Shown here: piece by piece, positions 12,854 through 58,310 of the stretch
Position numbering within the stretch: position 1 is the first letter of the stretch
Layout of the letters: the number at the start of each line of letters is the position of its first letter
From: Onthophagus taurus
Lineage: Eukaryota; Arthropoda; Insecta; Coleoptera; Scarabaeidae
Length of the DNA stretch: 64,000 nucleotides
Assembly (NCBI RefSeq): GCF_036711975.1
Contig: NC_091976.1
Location: 32,798,001-32,862,000, forward strand
Reading direction: 5' to 3'
Translations under genes and position numbers: made by a program
The notes under the pieces: model-generated
What the model was told of the DNA's origin: nothing
The model's database searches: none
The model's input: only the letters and a program-made list of their open reading frames with translations

Positions 12854-14525
12854 CAAGGTGATTATCAACCTATATGTGTAAACTTGATGAAAAAAATTGT
12901 AGTAAAAGTCATCAAGGAGATGTTACAAAGTACAAGAACTGCTGCCAATAAGTTGGCAGGCTGTAGAATATAGTACAGATGTTACAAAGTACAAAAACTC
13001 ATGCTGCCAAATATTTGGCAGACTGTAAAATATAGTATAGATGTTACAAAGTACAAGAACTCAAGCTGCCGACAAGTTGGCAGACTGTAGAGTATAGTAT
13101 GGATGTTACAAAGTATAAGAACTCATGCTGCCAACAAGTTGGCAGTTTTTAAAATTCCTTATTGATGTCTGCTAACAAGAACTTATGCAGCCAACAAGTT
13201 TCCAGCCTCTAGAATGCGTGATTGATGTCTGTTCACAAGATCTCGTGCTGCTAACAAGTTGGCAGACTGTAGAATGTAATATAGATGCTACAAAGTACAA
13301 GAATTCATGCTGCCAACAAGTTGGCACTCTCTAGAATACAGGATTAATGTCTGTTGATCTCACAACTCATACTGCCAACAAGTTAGAAGTCTCTAGAATG
13401 CGTGATTGATGTCTGTTTACAAGAACTCATGCTTCCAACAAGTTGGCAGTCCTTAGAATGTAGTATTGATGTCTGTTTACAAGAACTCACGCTGCCAATT
13501 AATTTGCAGGCTGTAGAATATAGTATAAATGTTACAAAGTACAACAAATTATGCTGCAAACTTGTTGGCAGCCTCTAGAATGCAGGATTGATGTCTGCTG
13601 ATCTCACAGGTCATGCTGAAAATTAGTTGGCAGACTGTAGAATATAGTATAGAAGTTATAAAGTACAAGAACTCATGCTGCCAACAATTTGGCAGACTGT
13701 AGAATATAGTATAGATGTTACAAAGTACAAGAACTCAAGCTGCCAACAAGTTGGCAGACTGTAGAATACAGTATGGATGTTACAAAGTATAAGAACTCAT
13801 GCTGCCAACAAGTTGGCAGTTTTTAAAATTCATGATTGATGTCTGCTAACAAGAACTTATGCAGCCAACAAGTTTTCAGCCTCTAGAATGCGTGATTGAT
13901 GTCTGTTCACAAGATCTCATGCAGCTAACAAGTTGGCAGACTGTAGAATGTAATATAGATGCTACAAATTACATGAACTCATGCTTCCAACAAGTTGGCA
14001 GTCTCTAGAATGTAGTATTGATATCTATTTACAAGAACTCACGCTGCCAATTAATTTGCAGGCTGCAAAATATAGTATAAATGTTACAAAGTACAAGAAA
14101 TCATGCTACAAACTTGTTGACAGCCTCTAGAATGCAGGATTGATGTCTGCTGATCTCACAGGTCATGCTGAAAATTAGTTGGCAGACTGTAGAATATAGT
14201 ATAGAAGTTACAAAGTACAAGAACTCATGCTGCCAACAACATTTTTCGTTGGAAGTGCGTTGACATCTAAATAATGTAATTCCCTGAAGATGGATAGATT
14301 GAGGTTGCGATTGGTCGACCTAAATCCTCATGATTTTTATTTTTGAATTTAATACTGAACAAGAATTGCGAAATCGGATATTTGCTGTTATTGAGACAAT
14401 CCGTCAATACTGAAGAAAAAGAAAAATTTACGGAATTACAATTTTTTGCATCTATTGCTCATTATTTTTAACTTAATTTTTTTTTTAATCCCCAAGTTTA
14501 TGCGTATAGGTTGAGAATCATCCTG
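12854..14525 (+). mobile_element. Mariner-like element with a satellite-filled interior
   Basis: The left end CAAGGTGATTATCAACCTAT and the reverse complement of the right end CAGGATGATTCTCAACCTAT match at 17 of 20 positions and continue through 'A.G..TAAACTTG', about 34 bp in all. TA dinucleotides flank both (12852-12853, 14526-14527), as for Tc1/mariner insertions. Just inside the right end (about 14295-14420) a broken frame reads like the mariner C-terminal motif (D/N-PHDFYF, cf. SPDLxPxDFFLW) with stops. Nearly all of the interior (12905-14240) is tandem ~67-bp satellite monomers. Confidence 0.75.
12905..14240. repeat. Satellite array inside the mariner-like element
   Basis: About 20 monomers of the AACAAGTTGGCAG family of 8060-10940, here with a larger ~664-bp internal duplication (the segment with 'agaactcaagctgcc' recurs near 13055 and 13730). 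Monomers are more diverged than those in the 622-bp block. Confidence 0.88.
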
Positions 14526-23867: not shown

Positions 23868-23966
23868 ATGTCGACCCGAAAATCGTTTACAATTCAAGAA
23901 AAAGCTGAAGTTATCAAATTGTTAGAAGCTGGGGAATCAAACGGATCAGTGGCGAAGAAATTTAAG
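23868..23966 (+). CDS. Pogo/Tigger (CENP-B-like) transposase-derived protein, exon 1
   Basis: Encodes 33 residues, MSTRKSFTIQEKAEVIKLLE through VAKKFK, the first half of a psq/CENP-B-type helix-turn-helix. It ends in phase 0 at AAG|GTAAAT. The HTH is completed only by joining exon 2 (MSSSTISTIW at 31338): the typical family text is AxxFGVSxSTVSxIxK. The intron therefore splits the DNA-binding helix-turn-helix and is 7.4 kb long, packed with transposons and the THAP gene. Autonomous Tigger elements normally lack introns here, so this looks like an acquired intron in a domesticated gene (inference). Confidence 0.85.
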
Positions 23967-24302
23967 GTAAATTTATGTTTACAATTGAAATAAATAATGA
24001 TTTAAATAAAATCTTTTTGTTTTTATGGTGTGTTGTGTATATGTGATGTGGAAAGCCAAAAGGGACCAGTTGTCTAAAAAAAATCAAATTTTTTTACACC
24101 AAAACAAAGTTGATATATTAATAAGTATCTTAGTTATACCTAATTTTAATGTATCAGACAGGACAAAGGGCATTTTGAGAGAAATGTGTTTAAAGTTTTC
24201 ACACTTTATTTTTCATATTTAAGAAACAAGTAGTAATACATCAAATTCCTGTTTTAAAACAACACAATATGATCACATTATGATTTAGAACATTGAATCT
24301 GT

Positions 24303-24790
24303 CTATATTAAATGGATCATTTGTTGAGGTTCATTAGGATCTTCAACTACTTCAGGAATGTCAACAGGTGGGCATAGAATGCTCTTTGATTCTTCTTTAC
24401 AGTACTTCCTTATATTTTTATAAAGATACTGTTTCCTTTCTTTAGTCATTCCTAAAAAAAATTTAATTAAAATGGTTATGAGGAGAAAATTAGTTTTTAA
24501 ATACAAATTAATTTAACTTACCTGGTGGTGTTATTTCTTTTGGAAATCCTGAGGAACCTGTTCTGATGTGAAAATTGTTTCTATGGATATTAGTTTTGCA
24601 TAGTACTTTTCCTTTGTTGTTTTCATTGAACTCAAAATAATTGTACTGAGTGATGAGAAGTATTTTCTTGGATTTAAAATCCTTAAAAAAGTTTAGCCAG
24701 TCAAATACCTGGATCTTAACATCGCCCTTTTCCAGAGTTTACTTCAGAAGTTGGCGTAAACTGAAATACGTAATCAATCAGTTCTTAGAT
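24303..24790 (-). pseudogene. C-terminal part of an unrecognised TE-like gene
   Basis: Minus strand, two in-frame segments separated by a short intron (about 24452-24519, GTAAGT...TTTTTTAG): KGDVKIQVFDWLNFFKDF...GFPKEITPPG and then MTKERKQYLYKNIRKYC...CPPVDIPE, ending at a stop at 24303. The PxGMTxERKxYLYxxIRxxC pattern resembles the C-terminus of a widespread, poorly characterised invertebrate family that also carries the blocks seen at 25420-26480, so I treat both as one locus interrupted by the LINE at 24790-25290. No function is assigned. Confidence 0.5.
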
Positions 24791-25290
24791 GTACATTGTT
24801 CAGAACTTACCAGGCACCATAATAGAGGTGATAGCATTTTAGTCAGCGACTCGCCTCCCAGACTGGCTATGATCTGCCGACTTTTCAACATGGTTATACA
24901 CCATTTTATTGTCTTTTTTATTATCTTTTACGTTTAGAGCCTTCTCTTTGGGTTCATAGGAGGTGTTATCAAACGCACCCTCTATGTCTATGAAAGCACA
25001 TAAGGCTATCTCTTTGGTTGCAATTGCCTCCTCTCAAGTGCTAGTCAAAGCATGGAGAGTAGTAATTGTTAATTTTGCTTTCTGGTAAGCATGTTGGCTA
25101 GGCTGGAGAGGATTAGTGACAAGCACTCGATTCCTAAGGTATTGATCGATTACCTTTTCCATCCCTTTGAGGAGAAATGAAGTTAGGCTAATTGGTCTGT
25201 ATGCCTTGGGGTCGGCAAGCTTTGAACCTTTAATAGAGCTTACACTTTCTGGGATTAGGTAGTTTGCCTGTTTATTAGTTGCTTCACACA
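24790..25290 (-). pseudogene. Non-LTR reverse transcriptase fragment
   Basis: Minus strand: ADPKAYRPISLTSFLLKGME (RT block 2), then a lost frame to IALCAFIDIEGAFDNTS (block 3, catalytic-Asp region) and ESLTKMLSPLLWCLV (block 4, QGxxLSPLLW with substitutions). The lineage text resembles R1/Jockey-group elements. Stops and frameshifts show decay. It splits the TE-like gene on either side. Confidence 0.8.
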
Positions 25291-25419
25291 TAACCCTCCA
25301 AAATTCTGATCTTAAACAGCACCAAAAAATAAATTGGGCCAGGTTGTAAGAGGTTGCTGGGAACGTGAACTTGTTGGGCCATATCGAAACTGTAAAGGGC
25401 ACTTGTCTCATGCGGCTTA

Positions 25420-26480
25420 TCAAGACAGTCTGTGGTCGTTTTTATTGTATTTTTCTAAAACATTGGCTATTTTCTCTTTTTCACTTGCAACCACCATAAC
25501 AGCCCCAGAAGTATAATGTTTTAGGCAAAAGGAGCACAGGCCTGAGTTTGGTCTCATGATGACAATGGTGGAGCATGTTTCTCGCCAAATGTTTGTGAAC
25601 ACAGTCAATGATACAGATTTTTTCTTGCTATCACTAGAAGGCAACAGTTTTAGATTGGTGTTATATACAATACTACTTCTGGCAGATAAATCGCATGTTG
25701 CTCAGCATAATTGTTCAGGATCTTCACAACGTACTTTCTGTCAGTAACTGAAGTAGCATTCTTATCAATTTTGTTGCAGCCTTTGCAACAAATCCACTGT
25801 CATTGTATATTTTCAAAATTCGTTTTCATCTCTTTGTTTTGATTTGGTGACAAAACATGTAAGTATCCCTACAGACCTGCTGACCTTTGATTAAATAAGT
25901 GTTTTGTAGTTGATTTCTGACAAAATTTTCTTCATTTTTCAAACATCGCAGTTGGCCCAATATTACTTGATCCAATATGTTTACGTTATTCCAGTATGGT
26001 CGATTTCAGCAGCTTCAAGACGCATTTTTGAATAGGTATTTATTGAGAATTTAGTTGCGCACACTTTCTCCAAAAAATCTACAATTAGCTGGCGGTCATT
26101 TTCACTGGCAAAGCTGCCTAAATTAACATTAACTTTTTCTAAAGCTACTATTTCGAGACCTTCGACATTTTCATCAACTATTTCTAGGTCATTTTGATTT
26201 GCTTCAATTTCTATTACAACATTTTCTTCAACAATAGGAATGTCGTCATTATCGAAATCCGCAGAATCCAATGTCGGTACTTGATCAAGAAAGTCATCTG
26301 TCAGTAGGCTTTGGCCAACATCCTGTTCAGCCTTTTCATTGTTTTCACTTGATTTGTCACTATTTCCTGATTGCACATCAAAATAATCATGATAAGCTTT
26401 AAAATCTTCCTCATTTACTGCTTTTTTCGGTCATACTGAAAATTTTACTCTACCGACAACTGGTCCCTTTTTGATTTCCG
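25420..26480 (-). pseudogene. N-terminal and middle part of an unrecognised TE-like gene
   Basis: Reading on the minus strand: an acidic N-terminal segment (AVNEEDFKAYHDYFDV, then many Asp/Glu, 25981-26376), then VCRDTYMFCHQIKTKR, then LLPSSDSKKK-type text and RPNSGLCSFCLKHYTSGA with a CxxC pair. Frames shift between blocks. The order (VCRxTF, PGR...LLPSS, LCxxCxxH) recalls a family repeated in many invertebrate genomes, probably transposon-encoded, but I cannot name it. Decay is clear, so no active product is proposed. Confidence 0.45.
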
Positions 26481-26503
26481 CATCATATATACTTAAAAAT
26501 ATA

Positions 26504-26794: not shown

Positions 26795-26850
26795 TATAAA
26801 ATGAAAAAAATTAAAAAAAAATTAATTTAATTTGAAGTAAATCCAAAAAA

Positions 26851-26949
26851 TGACGTCAGTAACGGACCTGTGTCACTCTCAATCAGCTGTTGTTGTGTTC
26901 ATTGTGTGCTTTTAGGTAAATCGCAGATATATTTATCCTTCTTTCTAAA
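26851..26949 (+). promoter_or_regulatory. Likely first exon and promoter of the THAP gene
   Basis: Contains a full palindromic CRE, TGACGTCA (26851-26858), and an E-box CAGCTG (26884-26889). It ends at CTAAA|GTAAGT, a near-consensus 5' splice site at 26950. The terminal A would supply the first base of the THAP start codon (A|TG). The transcription start is not determinable from sequence alone. Confidence 0.5.
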
Positions 26950-27048
26950 GTAAGTTTATTTTGGAATGACTTTAAGCTAATATTTACCACAAGTACGTTT
27001 TATTAATTAAACTTTACATTTATGTGCTTATAATCAATATACTTATAG

Positions 27049-27276
27049 TGCCAGGCCGGAATTGTGCCGTTTCAACCTGTAAGAACAGTTATATGAAAAG
27101 TAAGAAGGAAGGAAAATCAATAATTTATCATAGTTTTCCAAAAGATCAAAAAATGCAAAAATTGTGGGCAAAAAAAACCGGATGTACTAATGAACGGAAC
27201 TTCAAGAATTGCCAGATTTGTTCCGATCATTTCTGCGAAGACGATTACGAGAGGGATTTGAGAAATGAATTATTAG
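27049..27276 (+). CDS. THAP-domain protein, exon 2 (zinc-coordinating part)
   Basis: THAP domains are C2CH zinc-finger DNA-binding modules also found in P-element transposases. This exon begins TG CCA GGC CGG right after a TATAG acceptor; with the A left by the upstream GTAAGT donor the start codon is A|TG, giving MPGRNCAVSTCKNSY. Zinc ligands: C-x4-C (NCAVSTC) and C-x2-H (CSDHF); the conserved Trp is in KLWAKKTGC. It ends NELLG at a GT donor in phase 1, matching exon 3 at 31018. The whole protein would be 136 residues: a THAP domain with a short basic tail. Autonomous THAP gene, or an alternative 5' part of the pogo-derived gene. Confidence 0.85.
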
Positions 27277-28584
27277 GTATCGATTAAATTGATTAACCCT
27301 TTTAGTGCCGGGCGAAAAACTATATGTATATAATTCAAAAAGCAGTGTATTAAGGATGACAAAATGATGACACAAATTTTTCTATATTCATTGAAAATTA
27401 TATAAATAGTAAAGGTATAAAATATAATAAAGAAAGTAAAAGATGAGTTCTCTCTTACAAAACGTATTTGTAAATATGAAAAGTCATCTTTACATCATAA
27501 CTTTATATGGATCATTTATTACAAAGTATATGCTTTGAATTTCTAAGATATTTTGTAACAAAATAAATAATATTGGATGGGAAAAATAAAGAATAACTCC
27601 AAGGTACTTACATGATAAGTAACATTTCTAGGGTTCTGGCCAAAATAAAAATTTAAGAATTCAGACTTAAGTATTATCAATTGCGTTCATTTCGACTAAA
27701 ATATTTTCAGATTTCCAGCACTTCCGGTTATACCGGATATCGCCACTTATTTTATTTTTTAAATGGAACACCTTGTATATTTTTACATATTTGGATTTGT
27801 CTATTTTCAAGGTTTATGAATAACTTTATTTTTTGCAATTTGATTCGGCCGTTCTCGCGTTATTCGAATTTTTCTAGAAAAATCTGCTCTAGCAGACATT
27901 TATTCAAAAAATCAGAGAACACTCGATTTTTGGGATATCAATTTAGGATTCAGAACATGCTTAAGCAACATGATGGAGTATGTTTTGGTGCCGAGAACGG
28001 CTGTCTAGAACGTTTGGTCACTTTACTATGGCACGTTAAGTTTTCGAAATTTGGAAGTACCATAACTTCATTTTTTTAAATGGCACCTCTCATATTTTAT
28101 TACTTAGTCGTCTTCGGTGTCTCATTCTACATCTTTTATATCCCATGTGTCTCATACTTAACATTAATAGTTTGGGAGATAATTAGGGTTTTTTGAAAAA
28201 TGCACACATCATATGGATATTTAGCTTAATGTGCCAACCCCAGAACCGTCTAATGACCGGTCTCGCTGAGACACCCTGTATATTTGTGATATAATTTGGC
28301 ATAATACTTCATTATCATAACATAAATATTTATATTTAGATATTGTAATGTGTAATATGCAATTCTTTATTGCACCTATTGCAAATTGTGCATGATTTTC
28401 GTTTTGGTCCACCATCCTTTATGCTGGTGGATGTTTCAGCCAATTTTTACTGTCATCCATTCTCTGGTTATCGACTGAATAATATCGATTATAAATTCGA
28501 GTCGTGTTTAGATTCTGCCTTCTGTATTTTGCTAATACAAGATGTAAGAACCATTCGGAAGAAAATGGCGAAAACTACTTTTTT

Positions 28585-30145
28585 GTAATTCGCGACGGTA
28601 ATGAAAGCTATTACAGTACTCAAACGGGTGCTGTAATGACACTCTTTACAGCATCCGATGCTGTAATGAGATTTTAGTAACATTTTATGGAATCAGTTCA
28701 AGTTGGTGACATTGGGTCATTAATTTTTCTAGTTGTCAATGTGACAATGTTTGTCTATGGATGTTTAAACACGTTCTTAGCATCGAATACAAAGTCAACA
28801 ATGATGAGGACATTGACTCTGAGCAATTTCTCTTATTTTGGGAGGTGTACATCAAACTTTTTTTTTCAGGTGAATATATTTTGTGTTTTGACAGTTTCTA
28901 ATTGTCAATTCAAAGTTTCTATTTTCAAGTGTTACCAACTGCTACATACCTATTTCCCTACATTGCCAAAATTTATTTTATTTTTGTTAAAAAAAAAGGA
29001 TGAAAACGCGAATTACAAAAAATAGCATAAAAAACACGTTTCATAAGACTTAAAACACTCATTCATTAAAAAACTCGTGGCTTCGTCACTCGTTTTTCAA
29101 CTTGAATTCGTGCTTTTCAAGCGTGTTTTACGAAACTTGTTTTTTAATATACTATTTTGTAATTCGCTACGGTAATGGAAGCTATAACAGTACTCAAACG
29201 GGTGCTGTAATGAGACTCCTTACAGCATCCGATGCTGTAATGAGATTTTAGTAACATTTTATGGAACCAGTTCAAGTTGGTTACATTGGGTCATTAATTT
29301 TTCTAGTTGTCAATGTGACAATTTTTGTCTATAGTTCGTTTTTTTTCTATAATACTTGTCAATGTAAATTATTTAGGGTTTCTGTTGGTATTATCTAGGA
29401 CCCTTATAAAATTTATGTTGTTTTCATGATTTTTAGTAACATTAACACTAATTAGTTACTGACATAATTAGTTGAGGTTAAAATACTAATAAATTTTTAG
29501 ATAAATACGATTTTGACGAAGTACATATTTGTTATAAAAACGTGCTACAAAGTAATTAAATAGAATAAAATACCTTTTCTAGGTAAGTAAATGGCAAATA
29601 AAAACCCCACAACACTTTTTATGCACCTTTTCTTTTTGAATAACGAAAGCTCAAACGTCAATGTGACATATTTACTTCAAAACATGATAAAACAAAACTC
29701 CCTGTTAATTTTGCCAACTTTACAACAATTTGACAGGTATTATAGAAAAAAAATGAACTATATGGATGTTTAAACACGTTCTTAGCATCGAATACAAAGT
29801 CCACAATGATGAGGACATTAACTCTGAGCAATTTCTCTTATTTTGGGAGGTGTACATGAAACATTTTTATCAGGTGAATACGTTTTATGTTTTGACAGTT
29901 TCTAATTGTCAATTCAAAGTTTCTATTTTCAAGTGTCACCAACTGCTACATACCTATTTCCCTACATTGCCAAAATTTACTTTATTTTTGTTAAAAAAAA
30001 AGTATAAAAACGCGAATTACAAAAAATAGCATAAAAAAACACGTTTCATAAGACTTAAAGCACTCATTCATTAACTTGAATTCAACTTGAATTCGTGCAT
30101 TTCAAGCGTGTCTTACGAAACTTGTTTTTTAATATACTATTTTCC
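28585..30145 (+). repeat. Tandem dimer of the 574-bp repeat unit
   Basis: Copy 1 starts at 28585 ('gtaattcgcgacggtaatg') and copy 2 at 29159 ('gtaattcgctacggtaatg'), 574 bp apart. Copy 2 is interrupted by the MITE at 29332-29760. Each contains 'aaaaaactcgtggcttcg' hairpin sequence and ends in 'cgaaacttgttttttaatat'. The long open frames at 28687-29025 and 29766-30029 are the same repeat read in one frame, not genes. Confidence 0.88.
29332..29760. mobile_element. 429-bp MITE with 33-bp TIRs and a proven TA insertion
   Basis: TAGTTCGTTTTTTTTCTATA at the left and the reverse complement TAGTTCATTTTTTTTCTATA at the right; inverted ends match at 31 of 33 positions (…ATACTTGTCAA / …ATACCTGTCAA). 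The flanks are 'tttgtcTA' and 'TAtggatg'; the sister repeat at 28751-28762 reads 'tttgtctatggatg' with one TA. Direct empty-site evidence. Confidence 0.93.
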
Positions 30146-30149
30146 AATA

Positions 30150-30870
30150 TTTGAGAGTTCTTCTTTCATCCAAATAGGAATATAACATCATGCCTGATGT
30201 GTCTACACTTCCCATATGTTTATTATATTCAATCATAATAGCTGAGTGTTTTATTGAGCCTTTTTCTATGTGGACAAGTTGTTTCGGGCGCCCTCTTGCA
30301 ATTTCTGCTTCATAAACGGTGGAACATAATATTTTCTATTACTACGGATTGTGCCAGTCAGTTATGTCTGTTTTTCGAACTATGATCTTGCTACTAAGAT
30401 GCTTGTAAATAAATTGTCGGCTTCCACATGATACCCTTTCATAAGATAATTGCCCATATTCAATAATTTATGCACTACGATGTAGCTAAGATCGTTTTCT
30501 CTTAACTGCATCAGTCAGCATTCAAAATTTTATGCCCCATTTACGATACTTTTTATTTGGAAGATATTGACTCAACGACGTTCTACATTTCGTGCCGACT
30601 AACGATTTCAATACTCAAATGTTGATAATTCGAATGAATGATATTTGAATTTATTATTTACGTGGGTTACAACTGGTTCAAATTTTGCTGTAGAGTCATA
30701 TCCTGGGCTATCACGTGTTGCTAATTTGTTATTATCTACAACATGGAAAAACGCGCAAATTAATTGAAACCTAATTCGGCTAAACATTTGGCCAAACCAT
30801 GGTTTGTTGACCAATAACTGAAAAGTGTCCGGCTACGTGCGATTCCTATTTTTAATAGAACGGCAGTAAA
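30150..30870 (-). pseudogene. piggyBac transposase remnant
   Basis: Minus strand: MVNKPWFGQMFSRIRFQLIC, FFHVVDNNKLATRDSPGYD (30608-30814), the N-terminal DDE_Tnp_1_7 text of PGBD4-type transposases, and further along ARGRPKQLVHIEKGSIKHS then MIEYNKHMGSVDTSG, the block around the third catalytic Asp (YNxxMGGVD). The middle of the catalytic domain is scrambled and carries stops. Inactive. Confidence 0.9.
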
Positions 30871-31017
30871 AGCCCTCATTTCTGACACTTTGGTTGTCTT
30901 CTGATTTGTTTCACTCTTCAATAAGCTCTATTTTGATGGCATAAGTTTAGGCCTATCAGCCTTCGGTACTAAAAGGGTTCAAATTGATTACAATAAATGA
31001 TTTTATTTGTCATTTAG

Positions 31018-31199
31018 GAATCCCTCCACGAAAAGTTTTAAAAAAGACAGCTGTACCATCACTCAGATTAGAAAATGCGAATCAAGCAGAGGTGGAATAC
31101 GCAATTACAAAAAGAAAAAAGCCACAACATGAATTTGATGACCAGGTTAAGTATTTAATATTTAGAATAAATCAAATACGCTTAAAAAACACTAATTGA
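31018..31199 (+). CDS. THAP-domain protein, exon 3 (C-terminus)
   Basis: Acceptor CATTTAG at 31011-31017, phase matching exon 2 (…LLG|IPPRK). IPPRKVLKKTAVPSLRLEN supplies the end of the THAP domain (AVPSL corresponds to the conserved AVPTF), followed by a basic KRKKP. The frame runs to a stop at 31199, 13 nt before AATAAA (31213-31218), so a complete 136-residue protein is possible. Alternatively the CAG|GTTAAGT at 31145-31146 can be used as a donor: the message up to there is 119 whole codons and would enter the pogo-derived exon at 31338 in frame. Confidence 0.8.
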
Positions 31200-31212
31200 T
31201 AAATATTTTTAT

Positions 31213-31218
31213 AATAAA
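31213..31218 (+). terminator. THAP gene polyadenylation signal
   Basis: AATAAA, 13 nt after the THAP stop and 120 nt before the pogo-derived exon 2. Confidence 0.65.
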
Positions 31219-31337
31219 GTTTTATTCAATACAAGATCTGCCTTTTATATTACATTTTGATACCATGGTTTAATTAAAACTTTGTAATTATCCCATTTTA
31301 ATCATAAAATAATAATAAAATTTTATTATTTGTTTAG

Positions 31338-32678
31338 ATGTCTTCATCAACAATTTCGACGATATGGAAAAGTCGCGATACCGTAAAACAAGTTTTTGAA
31401 AATAGCCCAGCTGCAAAAAGATTACGTCCTTGCAATGAAGTCTTAATAGATAAAGCTTTATTAAAATGGTTAAAAGCTCAAATGAGTAACGATATTGAAG
31501 TAACCACAACCGCTTTGCAAGAGAAAGCAAAAGAATGCGCTTTAGAAGTAGGAGTCACCGATTTTCAATGCACTGGTAGTTGGATTCAACGTTTTCGTAA
31601 AAGATACAAGAATATTTGCGGCAAAAAAAGCGAAATCGTGGATGTACCAGAAGAATTAAGCGTTAATTGGTTATCAACAGTTTGGCCAAGTTTAAGAAAA
31701 TCCTACTTAGATGATGAAATTTACAACGCGGTTGAGGCAAGTTGTTTTTATGGATTTTCTTCAAATAGATCCTTTGTAACGAATGAAATTAATCCGCAAA
31801 TTCGTCGCGATTTTTCAAAGGAACGCTTAACCATTTTAGTAGCAGCTAATATGACGGGGACAGATAAATTGAAACCTTTTGTTATTGGAAAATGTAAAGA
31901 ATGTTTTTTTAACTCTTTACTCGTTGATTATGAATATCATCCGAAAGGATCGATTAATTCAAATATATTTGAGAGAATAATAAAAAAATGGGACGATAAT
32001 TTTTATCAGCAAAAAAAGAAAATACTTTTACTTCTTGATAAATCCTCAATGCGTTTGATGTTGGACGATTTAGAAGCGATTGAAGTTGTATTTCTCCCCA
32101 CAAATATAAAATCACCTTTCAAAACGGGCAAAAAATCATCAGAATCAGTTATAATAACCGTAAGAAATGATTTTAGATCATTAGAAATTAAAAAATTTCT
32201 CGAAAATATAGACAATTCAGATACTCCAAAGCAAATAAATATCGTTGAAGCTTGCGATATGATTTCAACGGCTTGGAATAACATTTCCCAAAGCTCCATA
32301 TCAAACAGTTTCATCACCGGCGGTTTTAATGTTGACGCAAAATTTCAAGAATGTTCCAATGAGCCTTTACCCATAGAAGTGTGTCTTACTCCTTCGATAA
32401 AAGAAGAATTTATGGAGGAAGATAACGAAATTAAGATCAAAGAGGAAAATGAAATAAGTATAACTGAAAATCAAATTATACCAGGGAATAGTATCAAAAT
32501 TAAAGATGAGGTTGATTCGGAAATTGTTCCACCAACGCTCGAAGATGCAGCTTTTGCAATTCAAACTTTAAGAAACTTTTTTACGTTTAATCAAGGATCT
32601 GATTATGACAGAACAACGAGTGCAATTTCTTATTTAGAAAATTTAATTGAAGATTCAAAAGTATTAAATAAAATGTAA
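31338..32678 (+). CDS. Pogo/Tigger (CENP-B-like) transposase-derived protein, exon 2
   Basis: 446 codons after a TTTAG acceptor; with exon 1 the protein is 479 residues. Order: second half of the psq HTH (SSSTISTIWK), a CENP-B/Tc5-type HTH (about residues 64-135, ending TGSWIQRFRKRYKN), then a DDE_1 domain. The first catalytic Asp (normally NxDET) is replaced: YNAVEASCFYG, Val at about 165. The second is kept (LLLDKSSM, about 267). The third box (LQPLDxG) is absent (SPFKTGKKSS). The C-terminal third is acidic with three psi-K-x-E sites (SIKEE, KIKEE, KIKDE). An intact reading frame with a lost catalytic triad suggests a domesticated DNA-binding protein. Confidence 0.88.
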   Translation: MSSSTISTIWKSRDTVKQVFENSPAAKRLRPCNEVLIDKALLKWLKAQMSNDIEVTTTALQEKAKECALEVGVTDFQCTGSWIQRFRKRYKNICGKKSEIVDVPEELSVNWLSTVWPSLRKSYLDDEIYNAVEASCFYGFSSNRSFVTNEINPQIRRDFSKERLTILVAANMTGTDKLKPFVIGKCKECFFNSLLVDYEYHPKGSINSNIFERIIKKWDDNFYQQKKKILLLLDKSSMRLMLDDLEAIEVVFLPTNIKSPFKTGKKSSESVIITVRNDFRSLEIKKFLENIDNSDTPKQINIVEACDMISTAWNNISQSSISNSFITGGFNVDAKFQECSNEPLPIEVCLTPSIKEEFMEEDNEIKIKEENEISITENQIIPGNSIKIKDEVDSEIVPPTLEDAAFAIQTLRNFFTFNQGSDYDRTTSAISYLENLIEDSKVLNKM

Positions 32679-32729
32679 TTAATAAGATTATTTTTCTATA
32701 TATTTTTTTTAATTTTACCCCGTTATGAT

Positions 32730-33085
32730 TATAGTCCTGAAATGACATCCATTCTGTGCGAATTTACTTTATTCTGGTACTACATCTTGCACATTTTCTT
32801 CGCGTACTGCGTTTAGGTTGGTGATCGGAATTTATGGTTTTAATTTCTTCTGAAATCGTTCGTTTATGTTTGTTTATATCCATTTTTTGTGCGTTAACAA
32901 AACTAACTTTTCTGCCAGTAATCCATCAATCTTGCTTTCGAAAATCTTTATGCTTTATGGAATTGCCTAAAAGTTTGTACACAATAAAAGAATTCACTAC
33001 ACTGGCATCTAAACAATGAAAGAATATATGATGCCACAATTTCTGACTTTTTCTGTCCAATTCATAATTTAACTTTAATTGGTCA
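32730..33085 (-). pseudogene. piggyBac transposase C-terminus remnant
   Basis: Minus strand: LNYELDRKSQKLWHHIFFHC, DASVVNSFIVYKLLG and RSTRRKCARCSTR, the C-terminal domain and Cys-rich finger of PGBD4-type transposases. It ends about 50 nt after the pogo-derived gene stop. The matching N-terminal half lies at 41765-42475, across the satellite block. Confidence 0.8.
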
Positions 33086-33109: not shown

Positions 33110-34882
33110 ATAGTGATTTTTCAAAACGGCTTTTTGCATTAAAAAGAGGATACTTTAATTAATAATTGGTGATATTTCCACAAGGATTCTTCAAGAAATT
33201 AATTTTATAGCTAATTTTGAAAATTATCGATGAAAATTGCAACATCGAAAATTTTATCAAAACTTCAAATATTGTTTTCTCAAAAACTAAAAGTTATTTT
33301 TCAAAATGGGTTGGTTCATTGGAAAGAGGACACTTTTATTAACACTTTGGGAAATTTTCATACTCATATTCCAAGAAATCGATTTTATACGAATTTTTAA
33401 AACTTAATCGGCGAAAATTGCAAAATTCGAAAAAATTATCGATCATTTCAAAAATTTATTTCTCAAGAACTGAAAGTGATTTTTCAAAACGGCTTTTTGC
33501 ATTAAAAAGAGGTTAATTTAATTAATAATTGGTGATATTTCCACAAGGGTCCTTAAAGAAATTAATTTTATAGCGAATTTTGAAAATTATCAATGAAAAT
33601 TGTAACATCGAAAATTTTATGAAAATTCCAAATATTGTTTTCTCAAAAACGAAAAGTTATTTTTCAAAACGTGTTGGTTCATTGGAAAGAGGACACTTTT
33701 ATTAACACTTTGAGAAATTTTCATAGTCATATTCCAAGAAATCGATTTTATAGGAATTTTTAAAACTTAATCGGCGAAAATTGCAAAATTCGAAAAAATT
33801 GACGATTACTTCAAAAATTTTTTTCTCTAAAATTTAAAGTGATTTTTCAAAACGGCTTTTTGCATTCAAAAGAGGATACTTTAATTAATAATTGGTGATA
33901 TTTCCACAAGGATCCTTCAAGAAATTAATTTTATAGCGAATTTTGAAAATTATCGATGAAAATTGCAACATCGAAAATTTTATCAAATATTGTTTTCTCA
34001 AAAACTAAAAGTTATTTTTCAAAACGGATTGGTTCATTGGAAAGAGGACACTTTTATTAACATTTTGGGAAATTTTCATACTCATATTCCAATAAATCGA
34101 TTTTATACGAATTTTTTAAACTTAATCGGCGAAAATCGCAAAATTCGAAAAAATGATCGATCATTTCAAAAATTTATTTCTCAAGAACTGAAAGTGATTT
34201 TTCAAAACGGCTTTTTGCATTAAAAAGAGGTTACTTTAATTAATAATTGGTGATATTTCCACAATGGTCCTTCAAGAAATTAATTTTATAGCGAATTTTG
34301 AAAATTATCGATGAAAATTGCAACATCGAAAATTTTATCAAAACTTCAAATATTGTTTTCTCAAAAACGAAAAGTTATTTTTCAAAACGGGTTGGTTCAT
34401 TGGAAAGAGGACACTTTCATTAACACTTTGGGAAATTTTCATACTCATATTCCAAGAAATCGATTTTATACGAATTTTTAAAACTTAATCGGCGAAAATT
34501 GTAAAATTCGAAAAAATTGACGATTACTTCAAAAATTTATTTCTCTAAAATTTAAAGTGATTTTTCAAAACGGCTTGTTGCATTAAAAAGAGGATACTTT
34601 AATTAATAATTGGTGATATTTCCACAAGGATCCTTCAAGAAATTAATTTTATAGCGAATTTTGAAAATTATCGATGAAAATTGCAACATCGAAAATTTTA
34701 TCAAATATTGTTTTCTCAAAAACTAAAAGTTATTTTTCAAAACGGGTTGGTTTATTGGAAAGAGGACACTTTTATTAACATTTTGGGAAATTTTCATACT
34801 CATTTTCCAAGAAATCGATTTTATACGAATTTTTAAAACTTAATCGGCGAAAATAGCAAAATTCGAAAAAATTGTTAATTAT
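33110..34882. repeat. 355-363-bp satellite, left part
   Basis: Dimeric units of two ~180-bp halves. 'aaaacggctttttgcatt' starts at 33123, 33486, 33849, 34204 and 34567 (steps 363, 363, 355, 363). One half has 'ctttttgcattaaaaagagg', the other 'ggttggttcattggaaagag'. The array is continuous with 39222-41760 once the Jockey element is removed. Confidence 0.93.
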
Positions 34883-35024
34883 CAGTCTTCTCAAGACATT
34901 TGCACGAGTCACGCATGCTCTTGCTTTTCTCGGCTTTAGCGTGTTTAATAGCAGTGGTTTAATTAAATTTTAGTTTACTACCTACGTGAACAATTTTCCT
35001 ATCTGTGGGGGTGTGATCACAACT

Positions 35025-36347
35025 ATGGAAACGCAAGGTTCGGGGGCTTCGGCCTCGGAATCCGACCAGGACCCGGACGGTGAGTTCAGACTCCCTAACA
35101 AAAAACGCGGCCGCCCGAAAAAATACACACACACGGATCGTCCTCACAAAAAACAAAACACTAGCGGCAGTGATTCCGCATTTAAAGTTCCGCATCCACC
35201 TAAAAATAAAAATTATCCACCGCAAACACCAACAATTTTTCGAACTCCACGTGCTCCAGCCGCTAACCGGTTCTCTGATCGCCCGCTTACGTACCAACAA
35301 CAGACAAAAATCTACAACTCGGTGTTCTTCATAAAAACAAGTCTTCCGCTAAGCAGGATTCAGTTGTCCGAAATTTGGACGAAACACTCACTTAATCCAC
35401 GTGACATTATAATAAAAACAAAAGAGGGCTTTATTATTAAATCGGAAAATTCCAAACCACAACAAACCATCAATTTAAATCTACTAAAAAATCAAAACAT
35501 CATCTCAGAGTTTTCTGAATCAAGAAATTTTACACCATCTATTAAAAAAATTCCATCGGCCTCATACTCTGCAGTTATTGCTTCCGTTGATCTTGAAATT
35601 ACAGATCAAGAAATTAGCGAACATCTGAACTCGCTTAATATATCACACAGATACTGTAAAAGAATTATCTCTAAAGCCACAGATAAGCCCACCTATAAAA
35701 TTAGGATAATTTCCGGGTGTGTCGACTCCTATCAAAAGCTTCTGCAAGCAGGAGTATTCTTCAAAAACAACCACTTTCCTGTGTTTGAAAGCCGCGCTCC
35801 ACCGCCAATGCCGATCCCGTGTAGTAGATGCGACGAATTTTCTCATACCTCAGACAAATGCACTGCCACAGTGCAGTGCTCAAAATGCCTCGGCCCACAC
35901 AGTACCACTAAATGCACCTCACAGCTACCTGAGAAATGTAAATCCTGCGGCCTAGAGGGACACAGTGCCTGGTCACTAAAATGCAAGAACCGCCCCACAG
36001 CTCCCATTCGAGGAGTCCCTAACGTTAGAATAAAATCGGCTAATAAAAAATCTGACCAAATTTCTACAAAAACAAAAGAAACACGCATACATAAACCAAT
36101 CACCATTCACGACCACATTATTGATACCTACCTCTCAAAAATTAACTCACCCAAACCACGCGATCGTCAAGAGCTTATCAATTCCCTCAAACGGAAATTT
36201 GTAGAAAACTACCAAATCGATACGATTGTCGCATTTTCTGGAAGTTACATGTACGTTATCATGATTGATCTTCAGGACACCTCTAAGCCATCTCCTACAG
36301 AACCTATCCACGGCTACCAATCCTCGATTCCGCAAGATCAACAATGA
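35025..36347 (+). CDS. Jockey-type element ORF1 (gag-like nucleic-acid-binding protein)
   Basis: 440 residues from the ATG at 35025 (an upstream in-frame GTG at 34986 is not a credible start). ORF1 proteins of Jockey-clade elements package the RNA into ribonucleoprotein. N-terminal acidic patch, then KKRGRPKKY, an AT-hook core (GRP flanked by basic residues), then Pro-rich linker. Near residues 265-325 are CCHC-type knuckles: CSRCDEFSHTSDKC, CSKCLGPHSTTKC and CKSCGLEGHSAWSLKC. The stop TGA overlaps the ORF2 start as ATGA, suggesting termination-reinitiation. Confidence 0.92.
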   Translation: METQGSGASASESDQDPDGEFRLPNKKRGRPKKYTHTDRPHKKQNTSGSDSAFKVPHPPKNKNYPPQTPTIFRTPRAPAANRFSDRPLTYQQQTKIYNSVFFIKTSLPLSRIQLSEIWTKHSLNPRDIIIKTKEGFIIKSENSKPQQTINLNLLKNQNIISEFSESRNFTPSIKKIPSASYSAVIASVDLEITDQEISEHLNSLNISHRYCKRIISKATDKPTYKIRIISGCVDSYQKLLQAGVFFKNNHFPVFESRAPPPMPIPCSRCDEFSHTSDKCTATVQCSKCLGPHSTTKCTSQLPEKCKSCGLEGHSAWSLKCKNRPTAPIRGVPNVRIKSANKKSDQISTKTKETRIHKPITIHDHIIDTYLSKINSPKPRDRQELINSLKRKFVENYQIDTIVAFSGSYMYVIMIDLQDTSKPSPTEPIHGYQSSIPQDQQ

Positions 36348-39037
36348 CCAGCATAAAATTATTGTACGCAAACATTAACAGCTACCACCCGAAATCACAC
36401 CTGATCGGAAACTACATCATTGACAATCATATCCGTTGCGCAATGTTTGTGGAAACAAAATCGAAGTCTTCCATCACATTTAGAAACTGGACGTCAATCC
36501 AAAATCACGGCAATATTATAAATAGAGGAGTCAGAGGAGGAGCGGTGGCTATGGGCCACCCCGCGATACAATTGAGAAAATCCAACCCCCCCGCAATCAA
36601 CTCTCCATTAAATAATGCACTTCATTTTTGTATCACTATCGGGACAGACTTAATACATGTTTTCTTAATTTATATCCACCCGTTTAGTAAAATTGAAGAA
36701 TCCATATTTAACATGGCCTCACTGCACGACAAATGTCTCATAATTGGTGACTTCAATCCGAATCCAACCAAAAGGAAACACATAAGACATTTCCTGAATA
36801 TGTCCAATTTCGTACAAATCACGACTCCCCCCACGTACGTTATGGAAAACAATCCGAACTCTACTCCTGATCTACTGTTCTGTACAAGAAACATCCGCGG
36901 TCTAATTACACAGGTAGAAGTTGTTCCGGATTTATGCTCCGATCACTTGGGCATTTTAGTTTATGTCAACGTCACAACCAACATACCTAAACCTGTTCCG
37001 ACTTTAATTAAAAACTATAAGCTTTGCGACATGGAGACAGTTAACTCAATAATGAAAGACTTCATAGAAGCACATCAGACAATCACAGTTGACACGATCT
37101 CAAGGTTTAACAAATGTCTTAAGGAGTCAATAGACAAAGCGAGCCCATCCAGAACCACCAAACACTACAGTTTTCCGCTACCTCCATTTATTATCAGACT
37201 CATCAAGGAGAAAAGACGCCTATATCGAGACTTCAGGGTATATGAAGTGCCTGAGTTGAAAAAGAAGTTTAATGAGTTCAACAAAAAGATACAGAAACTA
37301 ATTCAGCAATACAGAACGGAAAAGTACATGGAAGCCTGTGACAAAATAAAACTGTGTAAAGGAAGAAACTATTGGCACGAAATTCGAAAACTATCAAGAT
37401 ACCAAAAGACACCTGGAACGGAGGAGCTCATTGATCCTACCGATGGCGGTGTGCACTCCAACCCTGAAGAGATTGTCAACATACACGCTGACTACCTAGA
37501 AGGTGTATTCACCTTTACCGAGGATGTTTCGTTTTGTCCCCACAATAAAAACATTATAGATAATTGGTACGAATCCGCATTTTTGACACCGTTCGAGACA
37601 CCCGAAGATGCTCTCATGTTGGAAGACGAATATTTTACTCTTCTTGGACAGGGAAAAGATACTGCTCCCGGTTATGATAACATCACAAGGAAACTGCTTA
37701 GAAGTCTAGATCTTAACATCCATGGCTTTATCAGAAAAATAATTAACTTTTGCCTTACGACTCAGCATTTCCCGCGCGACTGGAAGACGTCTATTATAAC
37801 TTGTATTCCCAAGAAGGATTCTTCTCTATCTGATCCAGCCAACTATCGCCCCATCTCACTGCTCCCCGTAATTGGAAAACTCTTCGAGACGCACTTGAAG
37901 AACAAGCTCCTGGCTGCGGTATCAAAGAAAATTCCGCCTTACCAATTTGGCTTCCAATCCGGCAAATCAACATCCCAGCCACTAACTATTCTGGTTTCCA
38001 ACTTCCAGGCGGCACGTTTTATAAAACTGAAATCTGCAGCAGTTTTTCTGGACGTCCGAAAGGCCTTTGACTCCGTGTGGCACAAAGGATTGCTATTTAA
38101 ACTGGATAAGCTAAAAACGCCATACTATCTTCTAACCCTGATAAACCAATTCCTGTCGAATCGCTCCTCCATCGTGAAGTTGAAAAATCACTTCTCCCAC
38201 AGCTTCTCCGCTCAGCAAGGCCTTCCTCAGGGTTCGCCTATCTCTCCCTCTCTATACAATCTTTTCTGCCACGATCTTTACAACGACAACCCAGACGCCT
38301 TGAACCTCACTGCATACGCACTACTTTATGCCGACGACACAGCATTGGTCTCGCACAGTAGGGATATCACTTCCTCGGTCCGTAAGCTGCAGACGCTCAT
38401 AAACGAAACGGAAAATTGGTACCGAAAATGGCGCATCCTACTCAATCCCACAAAAACACAATTTTTTGTCCCATTCCTCTCACCTCGCTCTCCCTCTCCC
38501 ACAATTACAATCCAATCAACGGCAATCTCCGTCTCACCAACCTGTAAGTATCTTGGCATAATACTTGACAGAACGCTTAAGTTTTCCACGCATGCAACCA
38601 AGGTGAAGATGAAAGTAAAGACACGCGCCAAACACTTTAAATCTCTTTCGTTCAGCGGTCGCGGAATCTCTACCTCATGTGCCTCGCACATCTACAAGAC
38701 CATATGCAGGCCCATCATAGAATATGGATCAATACTGCTAAGCAACGCACCAAGAAGAACGAAGTACCACCTGGAAGTAGCGGAAAGATCTGCACTGAGA
38801 TCCATCACCCGAATTAGGAACCCCCGTAATCCCCTCTTTAACCCTAGCAATGATCTGCTATACCAACTTACCGATATACCCCCTATCCATACCCGTCTTC
38901 AATCTTTGTCCGATAAATCCATTCTAAATTTTCCTACCAACGCCTTGCAACACACGCTTATAACGCCTCGATTACTCCACCCTCGCAACAACCCACCTCT
39001 TCTCTTCCAAAAACTCCTGGCCGTCAGAGAAGACTGA
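36344..39037 (+). CDS. Jockey-type element ORF2 (endonuclease-reverse transcriptase)
   Basis: 897 residues. N-terminal apurinic-type endonuclease: YANINSYHPK, FVETKSKS, IGDFNPNPTK and CSDHLGI, the last holding the catalytic Asp-His. Central RT: YRPISLLPVIGKLFE, AVFLDVRKAFDSVWHKGL, QQGLPQGSPISPSLYN and ALLYADDTALVSH (catalytic YADD), then CKYLGIILD. The C-terminus (LLSNAPRRTKYHLEVAERSA, LRSITRIRNP) is the usual Jockey/CR1-group tail. It has no stops or frameshifts across 2.7 kb. It starts inside the ORF1 stop (ATGA). Confidence 0.96.
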   Translation: MTSIKLLYANINSYHPKSHLIGNYIIDNHIRCAMFVETKSKSSITFRNWTSIQNHGNIINRGVRGGAVAMGHPAIQLRKSNPPAINSPLNNALHFCITIGTDLIHVFLIYIHPFSKIEESIFNMASLHDKCLIIGDFNPNPTKRKHIRHFLNMSNFVQITTPPTYVMENNPNSTPDLLFCTRNIRGLITQVEVVPDLCSDHLGILVYVNVTTNIPKPVPTLIKNYKLCDMETVNSIMKDFIEAHQTITVDTISRFNKCLKESIDKASPSRTTKHYSFPLPPFIIRLIKEKRRLYRDFRVYEVPELKKKFNEFNKKIQKLIQQYRTEKYMEACDKIKLCKGRNYWHEIRKLSRYQKTPGTEELIDPTDGGVHSNPEEIVNIHADYLEGVFTFTEDVSFCPHNKNIIDNWYESAFLTPFETPEDALMLEDEYFTLLGQGKDTAPGYDNITRKLLRSLDLNIHGFIRKIINFCLTTQHFPRDWKTSIITCIPKKDSSLSDPANYRPISLLPVIGKLFETHLKNKLLAAVSKKIPPYQFGFQSGKSTSQPLTILVSNFQAARFIKLKSAAVFLDVRKAFDSVWHKGLLFKLDKLKTPYYLLTLINQFLSNRSSIVKLKNHFSHSFSAQQGLPQGSPISPSLYNLFCHDLYNDNPDALNLTAYALLYADDTALVSHSRDITSSVRKLQTLINETENWYRKWRILLNPTKTQFFVPFLSPRSPSPTITIQSTAISVSPTCKYLGIILDRTLKFSTHATKVKMKVKTRAKHFKSLSFSGRGISTSCASHIYKTICRPIIEYGSILLSNAPRRTKYHLEVAERSALRSITRIRNPRNPLFNPSNDLLYQLTDIPPIHTRLQSLSDKSILNFPTNALQHTLITPRLLHPRNNPPLLFQKLLAVRED

Positions 39038-39210: not shown

Positions 39211-41765
39211 TTGTTAATTATTTCAAAAATTTATTTCTCAAGAACTGAAAGTGATTTTTCAAAACGGCTTTTTGCATTAAAAAGAGGATACTTTAATTAA
39301 TAATTGGTGATATTTCCACAAGGATCCTTCAAGAAATTAATTTTATAGCGAATTTTGAAAATTATCGATGAAAATTGCAACATCGAAAATTTTATCAAAT
39401 ATTGTTTTCTCAAAAACTAAAAGTTATTTTTCAAAATTGGTTGGTTCATTGGAAAGAGGACACTTTTATTAACATTTTGGGAAATTTTCATACTCATATT
39501 CCAATAAATCGATTTTATACGAATTTTTTAAACTTAATCGGCGAAAACTGCAAAATTCGAAAAAATTGTTAATTATTTCAAAAATTTATTTCTCAAGAAC
39601 TGATAGTGATTTTTCAAAACGGCTTTTTGCATTAAAAAGAGGATACTTTAATTAATAATTGGTGATATTTTCACAAGGATCCTTCAAGAAATCAATTTTA
39701 TAGCTAATTTTGAAAATTATCGATGAAAATTGCAAAATCGAAAATTTTCTCAAAACTTTAAATATTGTTTTTTCAAAAATTAAAAGTTATTTTTCAAAAT
39801 GGGTTGGTTCATTGGAAAGAGGATACTTTTATTAACATTTTGAGAAATTTTCATACTCATATTCCAAGAAATCGATTTTATACGAATTTTTAAAACTTAA
39901 TCGGCGAAAATTGCAAAATTCGAAAAAATTATCGATCATTTCAAAAATTTATTTCTCAAGAACTGAAAGTGATTTTTCAAAACGGCTTTTTGCATTAAAA
40001 AGAGGTTACTTTAATTAATAATTGGTGATATTTCCACAAGGGTCCTTCAAGAAATTAATTTTATAGCGAATTTTGAAAATTATCAATGAAAATTGCAACA
40101 TCGAAAATTTTATCAAAACTTCAAATATTGTTTTCTCAAAAACTAAAAGTTATTTTTCAAAATGGGTTGGTTCATTGGAAAGAGGACACTTTTATTAACA
40201 CTTTGGGAAATTTTCATACTCATATTCCAAGAAATCGATTTTATACGAATTTTTAAAACTTAATCGGAGAAAATGTCAAAATTCGAAAAAATTGTTGGTC
40301 ATTTCAAAAATTTATTTCTCTAAAACTAAAAGTTATTTTTCAAAACGGCTTTTTGCATTAAAAAGAGGATACTTTAATTAATAATTGGTGATATTTTCAC
40401 AATGATCCTTCAAGAAATCAATTTTATAGCTAATTTTGAAAATTATCGATGAAAATTGCAAAATCGAAAATTTTCTCAAAACTTTAAATATTGTTTTTTC
40501 AAAAATTAAAAGTTATTTTTCAAAATGGGTTGGTTCATTGGAAAGAGGATACTTTTATTAACATTTTGGGAAATTTTCATACTCATATTCCAAGAAATCG
40601 ATTTTATACGAATTTTTAAAACTTAATCGGCGAAAATTTGCAAAATTCGAAAAAATTGTCGATCATTTCAAAAATTTATTTCTCAAGAACTGAAAGTGAT
40701 TTTTCAAAACGGCTTTTTGCATTAAAAAGAGGATACTTTAAATAATATTTGGCGATATTTCCACAAGGATCCTTCAAGAAATTAATTTTATAGCGAATTT
40801 TGAAAATTATCAATGAAAATTGCAACATCGAAAATTTTATCAAAACTTCAAATATTGTTTTCTCAAAAACGAAAAGTTATTTTTCAAAACGGGTTGGTTC
40901 ATTGGAAAGAGGACACTTTTATTAACATTTTGGGAAATTTTCATACTCATATTCCAAGAAATCGATTTTATACGAATTTTTAAAACTTAATCGACGAAAA
41001 TTGCAAAATTCGAAAAAATTCACGATCATTTCAAAAATTTATTTCTCTAAAACTAAAAGTTATTTTTCAAAACGGCTTTTTGCATTAAAAAGAGGATACT
41101 TTAATTGATAATTGGCGATATTTCCACAAGGATCCTTCAAGAAATTAATTTTATAACAAATTTTGAAAATTATCGATGAAAATTGCAACATCGAAAATTT
41201 TATTAAAACTTCAAATATTGTTTTCTCAAAAACTGAAAGTTACTTTTCAAAACGGGTTGGTTCATTGGAAAGAGGACACTTTTATTAACATTTTGGGAAA
41301 TTTTCATACTCATATTCCAATAAATCGATTTTATACGAATTTTTAAAACTTAATCGGAGAAAATTGCAAAATTCGAAAAAATTTACGATCATTTCAAAAA
41401 TTTATTTCTCAAGAACTGAAAGTGATTTTTCAAAACGGCTTTTTGCATTAAAAAGAGGATACTTTAATTAATAATTGGTGATATTTCCACAAGGGTCCCT
41501 CGAGAAATTAATTTTATAGCGAATTTTGAAAATTATCGATCAAAATTGGAACATGGAAAATTTTATTAAAACTTCAAATATTGTTTTCTCAAAAACTAAA
41601 AGTTATTTTTCAAAACGGGTTGGTTCATTGGAAAGAGGACACTTTTATTAACACTTTGGGAAATTTTCATACTCATATTCCAATAAATCGATTTTATACG
41701 AATTTTTAAAACTTAATCGGTGAAAATTGCAAAATTCGAAAAAATTATCGATTATTTCAAAAATT
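39211..41765. repeat. 355-363-bp satellite, right part
   Basis: Continuation of the array at 33110-34882, about seven further dimeric units with small differences (for example 'gcgaattttg' versus 'gctaattttg'). The array ends around 41760 where piggyBac-derived sequence begins. Confidence 0.93.
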
Positions 41766-42475
41766 TATTTTTTATTTTTTTGGTTTCTGCGCACATTTTG
41801 CATTTTGGCTTCTTTTATCCCTCCATTTGAATCAACATCGCCTTATTTCATATCTATATCATGTCTCATTTGTAGTATACACTTTCTTGTATTATTTATT
41901 ATACCACAAAAACACACTTTTTATCTCCTAATGTCCAAACTTTGTAGCCTCTTTTTATAGGTTTTTTTTTGCATCATTGTTTTATATTGCTTTTACCCTT
42001 GGATTTGATCATCGATTCATCGATAGCCAAAAATTCATCCAGATTCAAACATTTTTGAAAATTGTACACCAAGTCATTTAGAAACGCACATACTTTGTAT
42101 AATTTGTCGAAATCAGGTGAATTTAGATTTGGGAGGAGAGTAAAATCGTTAAATCGATTCACTGGCATGAATTAACTAAGGTAACTATCATGTAGGGCAG
42201 AACTTAATCTTCAAAAATCTGTACAGCTAGATAACTGTTTTATTCCCATTAGAAGATTTAATCCTAAAAATATTTTGATTTCTGTACTATTTGTACACTT
42301 GAACGATTTTTCAGGTGTTGGGTTTGTAATTTCTTTGACAATATCCGTTATTCCAACTATTTTCATAAAATCATTAAGATCCAAATCAATAGATATGTCG
42401 TGCCAGTATGGACTTGGTTGAGTTTTTTGAACATTACTCTTAAAGCAAGAGGGTATGTTTTTATAAATAACCAAA
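41765..42475 (-). pseudogene. piggyBac transposase N-terminal half remnant
   Basis: Minus strand: DIVKEITNPTPEKSFKC and IKIFLGLNLLMGIKQLSS (42211-42474), then MPVNRFNDFTLLPNLNSPDF, YNFQKCLNLDEFLAIDESM (first catalytic-Asp region, VDESM) and, after a stop, KPIKRGYKVW. The frame decays toward 41765, where the satellite begins. The C-terminal part is at 32730-33085, so the two probably belong to one element split by the satellite. Confidence 0.85.
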
Positions 42476-54893: not shown

Positions 54894-54954
54894 CTGAAAA
54901 AGATTTAACAATAAATATTAAATATTAATAATATAAGTACGTATGCTTTTACGG

Positions 54955-58200: not shown

Positions 58201-58310
58201 ATCGTACCGACTATATTTATGGAAATTAAGTAATGATTTATATATCAAATTAAAGCTAAAACTATCTATTTTGAGATGACACATAATAATTTGTATGTTA
58301 ACTATATGAA
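55270..58310. repeat. 182-bp satellite, array A
   Basis: About 17 copies of an AT-rich ~180-183-bp unit with 'aaaatcgtaccgattatatt', 'atggaaattaagtaatgact' and 'gagatatctggagataacga'. Subtypes alternate (for example 'tatctggaaataacgatgct' versus 'tatctgcatataacaatggt') in a repeating order near 56000-57060, suggesting a higher-order unit of about four monomers. Confidence 0.93.

Follow-up and report, generated by a model that had tools for sequence, protein, structure and literature searches.

The pogo-derived gene and the THAP exons in its intron

The 64,000-nucleotide stretch of Onthophagus taurus DNA analysed here (G000:C11:32798001-32862000, hereafter the window) contains a gene derived from a pogo transposase, and exons encoding a THAP domain lie in the intron of this gene. 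The order on the plus strand is pogo exon 1 (23868-23966), the THAP exons (27049-27276 and 31018-31199), and pogo exon 2 (31338-32678). An initial annotation had placed the THAP exons between the two pogo exons on the same strand, and these coordinates were confirmed in the sequence. We consider here whether the THAP exons may serve as an alternative front end of the pogo-derived gene. Searches of the genome itself were performed over the species' own assembly (290.8 Mb, 33 contigs).

Exon 1 of the pogo-derived gene provides the start codon and the first half of the CENP-B_N helix-turn-helix, and ends in phase 0 at AAG|GTAAAT. Exon 2 opens in phase 0 at 31338, as had been annotated, and comprises 446 codons and a stop, encoding the second half of CENP-B_N, HTH_Tnp_Tc5, and DDE_1. 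Joined in phase 0, the two exons give 479 residues, with all three Pfam domains in one open frame. The gene is present as a single copy: the other 94 of the 95 matches listed were only 24-39% identical (95 of 285 candidates were scored). Outside this genome, 11 pattern stretches in viral_contigs and 85 in genome_contigs (by description viral, bacterial, and archaeal records) resembled the pogo body, and none was confirmed as a relative.

The first catalytic Asp of the pogo body is changed to Val, at a position that is Asp in all 27 relatives aligning there (29 loci given). The second catalytic Asp is retained (it is Asp in 18 of the 27 relatives), and the third catalytic residue appears to be replaced, as judged by eye from the alignments. 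At least one catalytic residue is lost, and the intact frame with its lost residue or residues is most simply explained by a domesticated, catalytically dead pogo gene. In nine of the 29 relatives, among them several near-identical copies and one weak match (E 0.001), the alignment crosses the exon 1/exon 2 junction uninterrupted, and no intron is visible there.

The THAP frame starts with a split codon. The A at position 26949 is the last base of a P-type leader exon (26851-26949, plus strand, 5' limit approximate) ending at AAA|GTAAGT, and the TG stands at 27049, where the THAP exon (27049-27276) begins. This exon continues with codons 2-76 and the first base of codon 77. Read through the next exon to its stop, the frame encodes 136 amino acids (aa) and matches the Pfam THAP domain (4.8e-15) and THAP1 in the PDB (5.8e-6). 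In a six-frame search of the genome, its closest protein relatives were found at C15:4612302 (56% identity) and C11:10463617-10464051 (52-60%). The similarity extends to the DNA, with 76% identity to the C11 copy across 27040-27296, 75% across 30978-31155, and 78% identity to the C15 copy; shorter DNA matches were found at loci on C2 and C3. The homologous region covers the end of the first intron, the THAP exon, the intron that follows it, and the next exon. In the C15 copy, the THAP exon is followed on its 3' side by an open frame of 508 codons with the Pfam domains Tnp_P_element and TNP-like RNaseH_N, GBD, and RNaseH_C. Because the DNA matches these copies and the C15 frame has P transposase domains, the THAP exons are, on homology, the stranded and truncated 5' end of a P-element-family transposon, lying in sense orientation in the pogo intron.

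This P fragment is now in two parts on the plus strand. The left part (26840-27296, 5' limit approximate) comprises the leader, the first intron, the THAP exon, and the beginning of the P intron, its match to the C11 and C15 copies running from about 27030 onwards, and the right part (30978-31155) contains the remaining P intron, the next exon from 31018 on, and the last P-homologous bases. The P transposase body (HTH, RNaseH, GBD) is absent, and homology stops near 31155. Identity to P copies is 76.6% over 31018-31145, with 3-nucleotide (nt) gaps only; it falls to 59% with a 1-nt gap up to 31199, and to about 50% beyond. On the 5' side, repeats resembling the leader and first intron (26840-27041) were found at six places (L075-L080 share the leader); one of the six lies in the C3 P copy and runs there into a THAP exon from 26997 on. 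The start of the leader is common to L079 and L080. As to terminal inverted repeats and an 8-bp target duplication, TGACGTCA was found at just two positions of the window, 26851 and 49336, and this search gave no matching P 3' terminus beside the fragment.

The initial annotation had described a THAP gene nested in the intron, with an in-frame route to a THAP-pogo fusion. The architecture and the possible fusion frame hold; the independent gene does not, since the THAP exons are the 5' end of a P element. An intact frame across two same-strand coding exons is what a nested host gene would look like, but the acceptor TATAG|T(G/A)CC before the split A|TG, the intron at the same codon, and the coding sequence continuing past the candidate donor are all common to the window and the P copies, and the leader matches the six repeats named above. 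We therefore rejected a separate host THAP gene, which we regard as very improbable.

P-element relatives are abundant in this genome: at least 90 places match the open reading frame (ORF) of the C15 P copy at E <= 1e-10, and several relatives have long open frames of 600-925 codons. At one further locus, L030 (C2:22882116-22885226), a decayed P-type THAP sequence is followed, some 0.5 kb downstream on the same strand, by a decayed pogo-type helix-turn-helix. A transposon family combining THAP and pogo was considered on account of this locus and set aside: both pieces are broken by stops and share no continuous frame, and we took them as chance neighbours.

A candidate splice from the THAP exons into the pogo exon

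The second THAP-unit exon carries the rest of codon 77 and the following codons to codon 119, where the sequence reads CAG|GTTAAGT (exon 31018-31145). This site after 119 whole codons had been proposed as a donor, and its position proved correct. A splice from 31145 to the pogo acceptor at 31337 would remove a candidate intron of 192 nt (31146-31337) and join the 119 codons to the 446-codon pogo exon in an open frame of 565 aa. In Pfam searches, the predicted product has THAP, HTH_Tnp_Tc5, and DDE_1 and lacks CENP-B_N, in agreement with the annotated proposal that THAP would replace the half helix-turn-helix of exon 1. Sequence comparison with the PDB matches it to THAP1 and to residues 37-129 of the CENP-B DNA-binding chain. 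The acceptor is already required by the pogo gene. Splicing in the other direction, from pogo exon 1 to the THAP exons, is out of frame, with stops at aa 49 or 41; among the splice combinations tried, only THAP to pogo via the exon at 31018 was open.

The donor position reads GAGGTTAAATATT in P copy L026 and TAGATTAAGTATT in P copy L027. Related P copies share that coding sequence, so the site did not arise as a donor for the fusion. The idea of a newly built donor is thus weakened, most of the site being old P coding sequence. Pairing of the window donor with U1, allowing a bulged U, was calculated at -9.4 kcal/mol; among the 6246 GTs of the window, counted on both strands, 0.32% pair as well or better. 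The L026 form of the donor reaches -4.2. Bulge registers have been linked with alternative 5' splice-site selection (PMC9311317). Both P homology and the keeping of the frame stop about 10-14 nt past the donor.

The candidate intron also contains the end of the unspliced THAP frame (TGA at 31197-31199) and three AATAAA signals (31166, 31213, and 31314), the second of which had been named as the likely end of a THAP message and is indeed there. The fragment may thus be a stand-alone THAP mini-gene that ends at this signal, its 136-aa product competing for P termini like the Drosophila 66 kDa and KP proteins, and pogo exon 2 being uninvolved. The open frame does reach its TGA 13 nt before AATAAA, many P relatives are present as targets for repression, and P proteins with THAP but without the transposase end act as repressors (PMC7776569). 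Its last 13 or so residues, however, are not P sequence, because P homology ends about 10 nt after the donor, and nothing else of the P protein is present. Moreover, AATAAA occurs 16 times in the 6.2 kb from 26801 to 33000, so its presence near the THAP stop is weak evidence for a THAP-only message. Transcripts of the pogo gene would have to pass the signal at 31213, which then cannot be dominant, and THAP transcripts would likewise be expected to extend to the pogo acceptor in many cases. We consider a stand-alone mini-gene distinctly unlikely.

Age, constraint, and interpretation of the THAP frame

The P intron is short in the C11 copy and 3.7 kb long in the window, where it is broken at TTAA (27293-27296); the right copy of this target reads TTCA (30978-30981). 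The insertion (27297-30977, minus strand) has the termini CCCTTTTAGTGCC and GGTACTAAAAGGG, which we take to be those of a piggyBac element. Its transposase is in pieces: three match DDE_Tnp_1_7 in profile order (33-68, 70-120, and 293-333) in three different frames, with E-values of 0.0019, 9.5e-5, and 0.0063, all below the curated cut-off, and one further piece has no match. A single other genomic place was found for 30150-30985, in three pieces that are 72%, 87%, and 94% identical.

Two further inserts are nested in the piggyBac-like element. One (28576-30150) is rich in repeats, with two-copy direct repeats about 95% alike. The other is a younger high-copy element (27622-28236) that serves as a minimum clock. 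Four other copies, the top ones among 133 matches, were used for comparison: the window copy differs from their majority by 5.2%, while those four differ from theirs by 0.5-2.1%. The order of insertion is P first, then piggyBac, now decayed, then the high-copy element, whose divergence sets a minimum residency of roughly 3-5% neutral change.

Despite the decayed piggyBac and the younger elements in its intron, the THAP frame is open. The four nearest DNA copies are all broken, by stops or a frameshift (C11:10463k), a truncated THAP exon (C15:4612k), an insertion and stops (C3:16250k), and stops (C2:22883k). We simulated neutral decay with assumed mutation ratios, counting a frame as surviving if it had acquired neither a stop nor a frameshift and had kept eight chosen THAP residues. 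The frame survived with a frequency of 0.11 at 3% change, 0.024 at 5%, and 0.0008 at 10%. A tree of 17 THAP rows gives the window a branch length of 0.12, compared to 0.34 for the C15 copy; the pairing of the two has a support of 84/88, and nine of the 14 inner branches are open. The window THAP also outscores the C15 THAP at 24 of 26 other loci, repeats included, with one lower score and one tie. This count omits 12 loci (the window and close P copies) and three without a C15 match; when repeated places were merged by hand, the window scored higher at 14 of 16, lower at one, and tied at one.

The ratio of non-synonymous to synonymous change (dN/dS) against L026 was 0.33 across 91 compared THAP codons and 0.37 or 0.42 for the whole frame, depending on which of two alignments was used. 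Between two dead P copies it was 1.4. All of these selection comparisons come from one genome, and the P relatives compared are dead copies. The open frame, together with a branch shorter than its sister's, suggests a retained THAP function, and we think it rather probable that the THAP unit is still functional. A concentration of constraint in the THAP domain would also suit the stand-alone mini-gene described above.

The reading that we tentatively favour, as quite possible though short of probable, is that the P 5' end has been exapted as an alternative THAP front end of the domesticated pogo gene and is at least sometimes spliced into it. The P 5' end would act as a captured promoter and THAP cassette. 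Transcripts starting there would continue into the pogo exon, and at least some of them would be spliced from CAG|GTTAAGT (31145) to the pogo acceptor (31337). The predicted 565-aa product would carry a P-type THAP zinc finger in place of CENP-B_N, followed by the second helix-turn-helix and by the DDE body, which is probably dead. An upstream promoter would give the ordinary CENP-B-type protein with the same last exon. This promoter would lie near the gene for menin (Pfam Menin, 1e-51 and 2.3e-93), which adjoins the pogo-derived gene on the minus strand; 228 bases separate the two ATGs in the sequence. The body would then have two DNA-binding heads, and all parts would be transposon-derived. 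In its full form, this proposal describes one locus making two DNA-binding proteins, with either a CENP-B-type (pogo) head or a THAP head captured from P on a dead pogo body, the P insertion having re-targeted a domesticated transposase. We judge this full form to be rather unlikely.

Several observations weigh against an exapted front end. The predicted fusion retains half of a broken helix-turn-helix. Four of the five GTs in 31018-31199 (exon ends 31034, 31052, 31091, and 31145) give an open THAP-pogo frame, so the phase match is weak evidence for a fusion; the whole THAP domain is kept only by the exon ends 31091 and 31145, by arithmetic from the Pfam limits. With a simple matrix based on assumed frequencies, the donor is ordinary (4.15 bits, a score reached by 8.3% of GTs). 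Its AAGT is already found in L027, and L026 reads GAGGTT, leaving at most one change (C at -3) that is clearly specific to the window, and a donor form with G at -3 already pairs with U1 at -8.0. The part of the leader upstream of about 26997 was not seen joined to the THAP exon at the other matching places. Codons 93-119, just before the donor, have a dN/dS of 1.3 against L026 (27 codons), which means no constraint, and the shortfall of non-synonymous change over the whole frame is borderline (a share of 0.684 compared to a neutral mean of 0.757, P 0.036). Conservation in the flanks of the P intron equals or exceeds that in the exons (46 of 54 matched sites compared to 267 of 355), and constraint measured against a P copy includes time spent in the mobile lineage.

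Some of these points would be expected of a dead fossil, that is, a decaying P piece whose frame of 119-136 codons is open by luck or because the P lineage was active until late, with a coincidental route into pogo. P debris is common, as the number of P matches shows; four of five GTs are in phase; the flanking P intron is conserved no less than the exon; codons 93-119 lack constraint; and if the residency corresponds to only 3% neutral change, the frame would survive by luck about once in nine simulated cases. Yet the THAP frame is intact while the younger piggyBac within it lies in pieces, survival becomes rare at 5% (about 0.02) and 10%, the window branch is short, and the four nearest P copies are broken. 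We regard a fossil as possible but doubtful.

Other features of the window and related systems

The pogo intron contains another transposon-like segment (24037-26492, 2.4 kb) with 38-nt inverted repeats at both edges (89%) and a weak reverse-transcriptase match on the minus strand (3.5e-4, below the curated cut-off). Downstream of the pogo-derived gene, at 33112-34873, 34974-39037, and 39220-41770, a pair of arrays that share a 363-bp period and have related units lies on either side of two open frames resembling those of a long interspersed nuclear element (LINE). The pair consists of a 916-aa ORF with RVT_1 and an endonuclease-like domain and a 457-aa ORF without a Pfam match; it looks as if a LINE had landed in one satellite array. 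Tandem repeats of 62 bp form two blocks at 8076-14239, with higher periods of about 122 and 248 bp. A tandem AT-rich unit of about 183 bp, with a higher period of 365 bp, extends over 7.6 kb (55288-62887) and yields long minus-strand open frames (LSPDISKFHIVNIQ...) that are probably repeat artefacts. An open frame at 53262-54917 encodes a serpin (Pfam 1.1e-87, two stretches), with an acidic insert of roughly 100 residues, delimited by eye, between the core and the C-terminal part. In a genome search for telomere repeats, a TCAGG 25-mer gave no hit and a TTAGG 25-mer gave three overlapping hits at a single place, which is uninformative as to the insect order.

Domesticated P neogenes of Drosophila are reportedly the subject of Pinsker 2001 and Quesneville 2005, and in the montium group exon exchange between P families is reported to have given alternative DNA-binding heads. 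In host-transposase fusion genes such as SETMAR and CSB-PGBD3, a resident gene can gain a transposon-derived exon through splicing, a layout that the window would share; there, however, a host domain usually gains a transposase end, whereas both parts are transposase-derived in the window and the insert would form the front.

The 207-aa KP and the 66 kDa protein are truncated P repressors of Drosophila (PMC7776569). What truncated repressors and neogenes have in common with the window is a P 5' part, immobile or truncated, that codes for the THAP DNA-binding domain, but the P part of the window is cut much earlier (about 122 codons) and lies inside an unrelated transposon-derived gene. THAP9, a P-element transposase-homologous gene with an N-terminal THAP domain (same source), is homologous along the whole P transposase, in contrast to the window, which retains the THAP front only. 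POGK, POGZ, and CENPB are chimeric domesticated pogo genes of vertebrate hosts with an added KRAB, ZNF, or dimerization domain (PMC7386202). They too combine a pogo transposase body with an extra functional domain; the candidate head in the window, unlike theirs, is a THAP domain supplied by another transposon, which a candidate splice would join to the body. Host-transposase fusions are treated in PMC8700633. No THAP-pogo gene was described in the open-licence literature searched, as covered by titles and the openings of abstracts.

If the THAP exons are a fossil, the locus is a caution that AT-rich introns readily offer in-phase donors and open frames left by dead transposons. If the junction is true, it would be an exon-level swap of transposon-derived DNA-binding domains between two superfamilies, at a single locus where one can still make out the P copies related to it, the empty target of the piggyBac, and the order in which later elements were inserted. 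It would then offer a natural setting in which to test how a DNA transposon in an intron turns into an alternative first exon, and whether more than one insertion is required to re-target a domesticated transposase.

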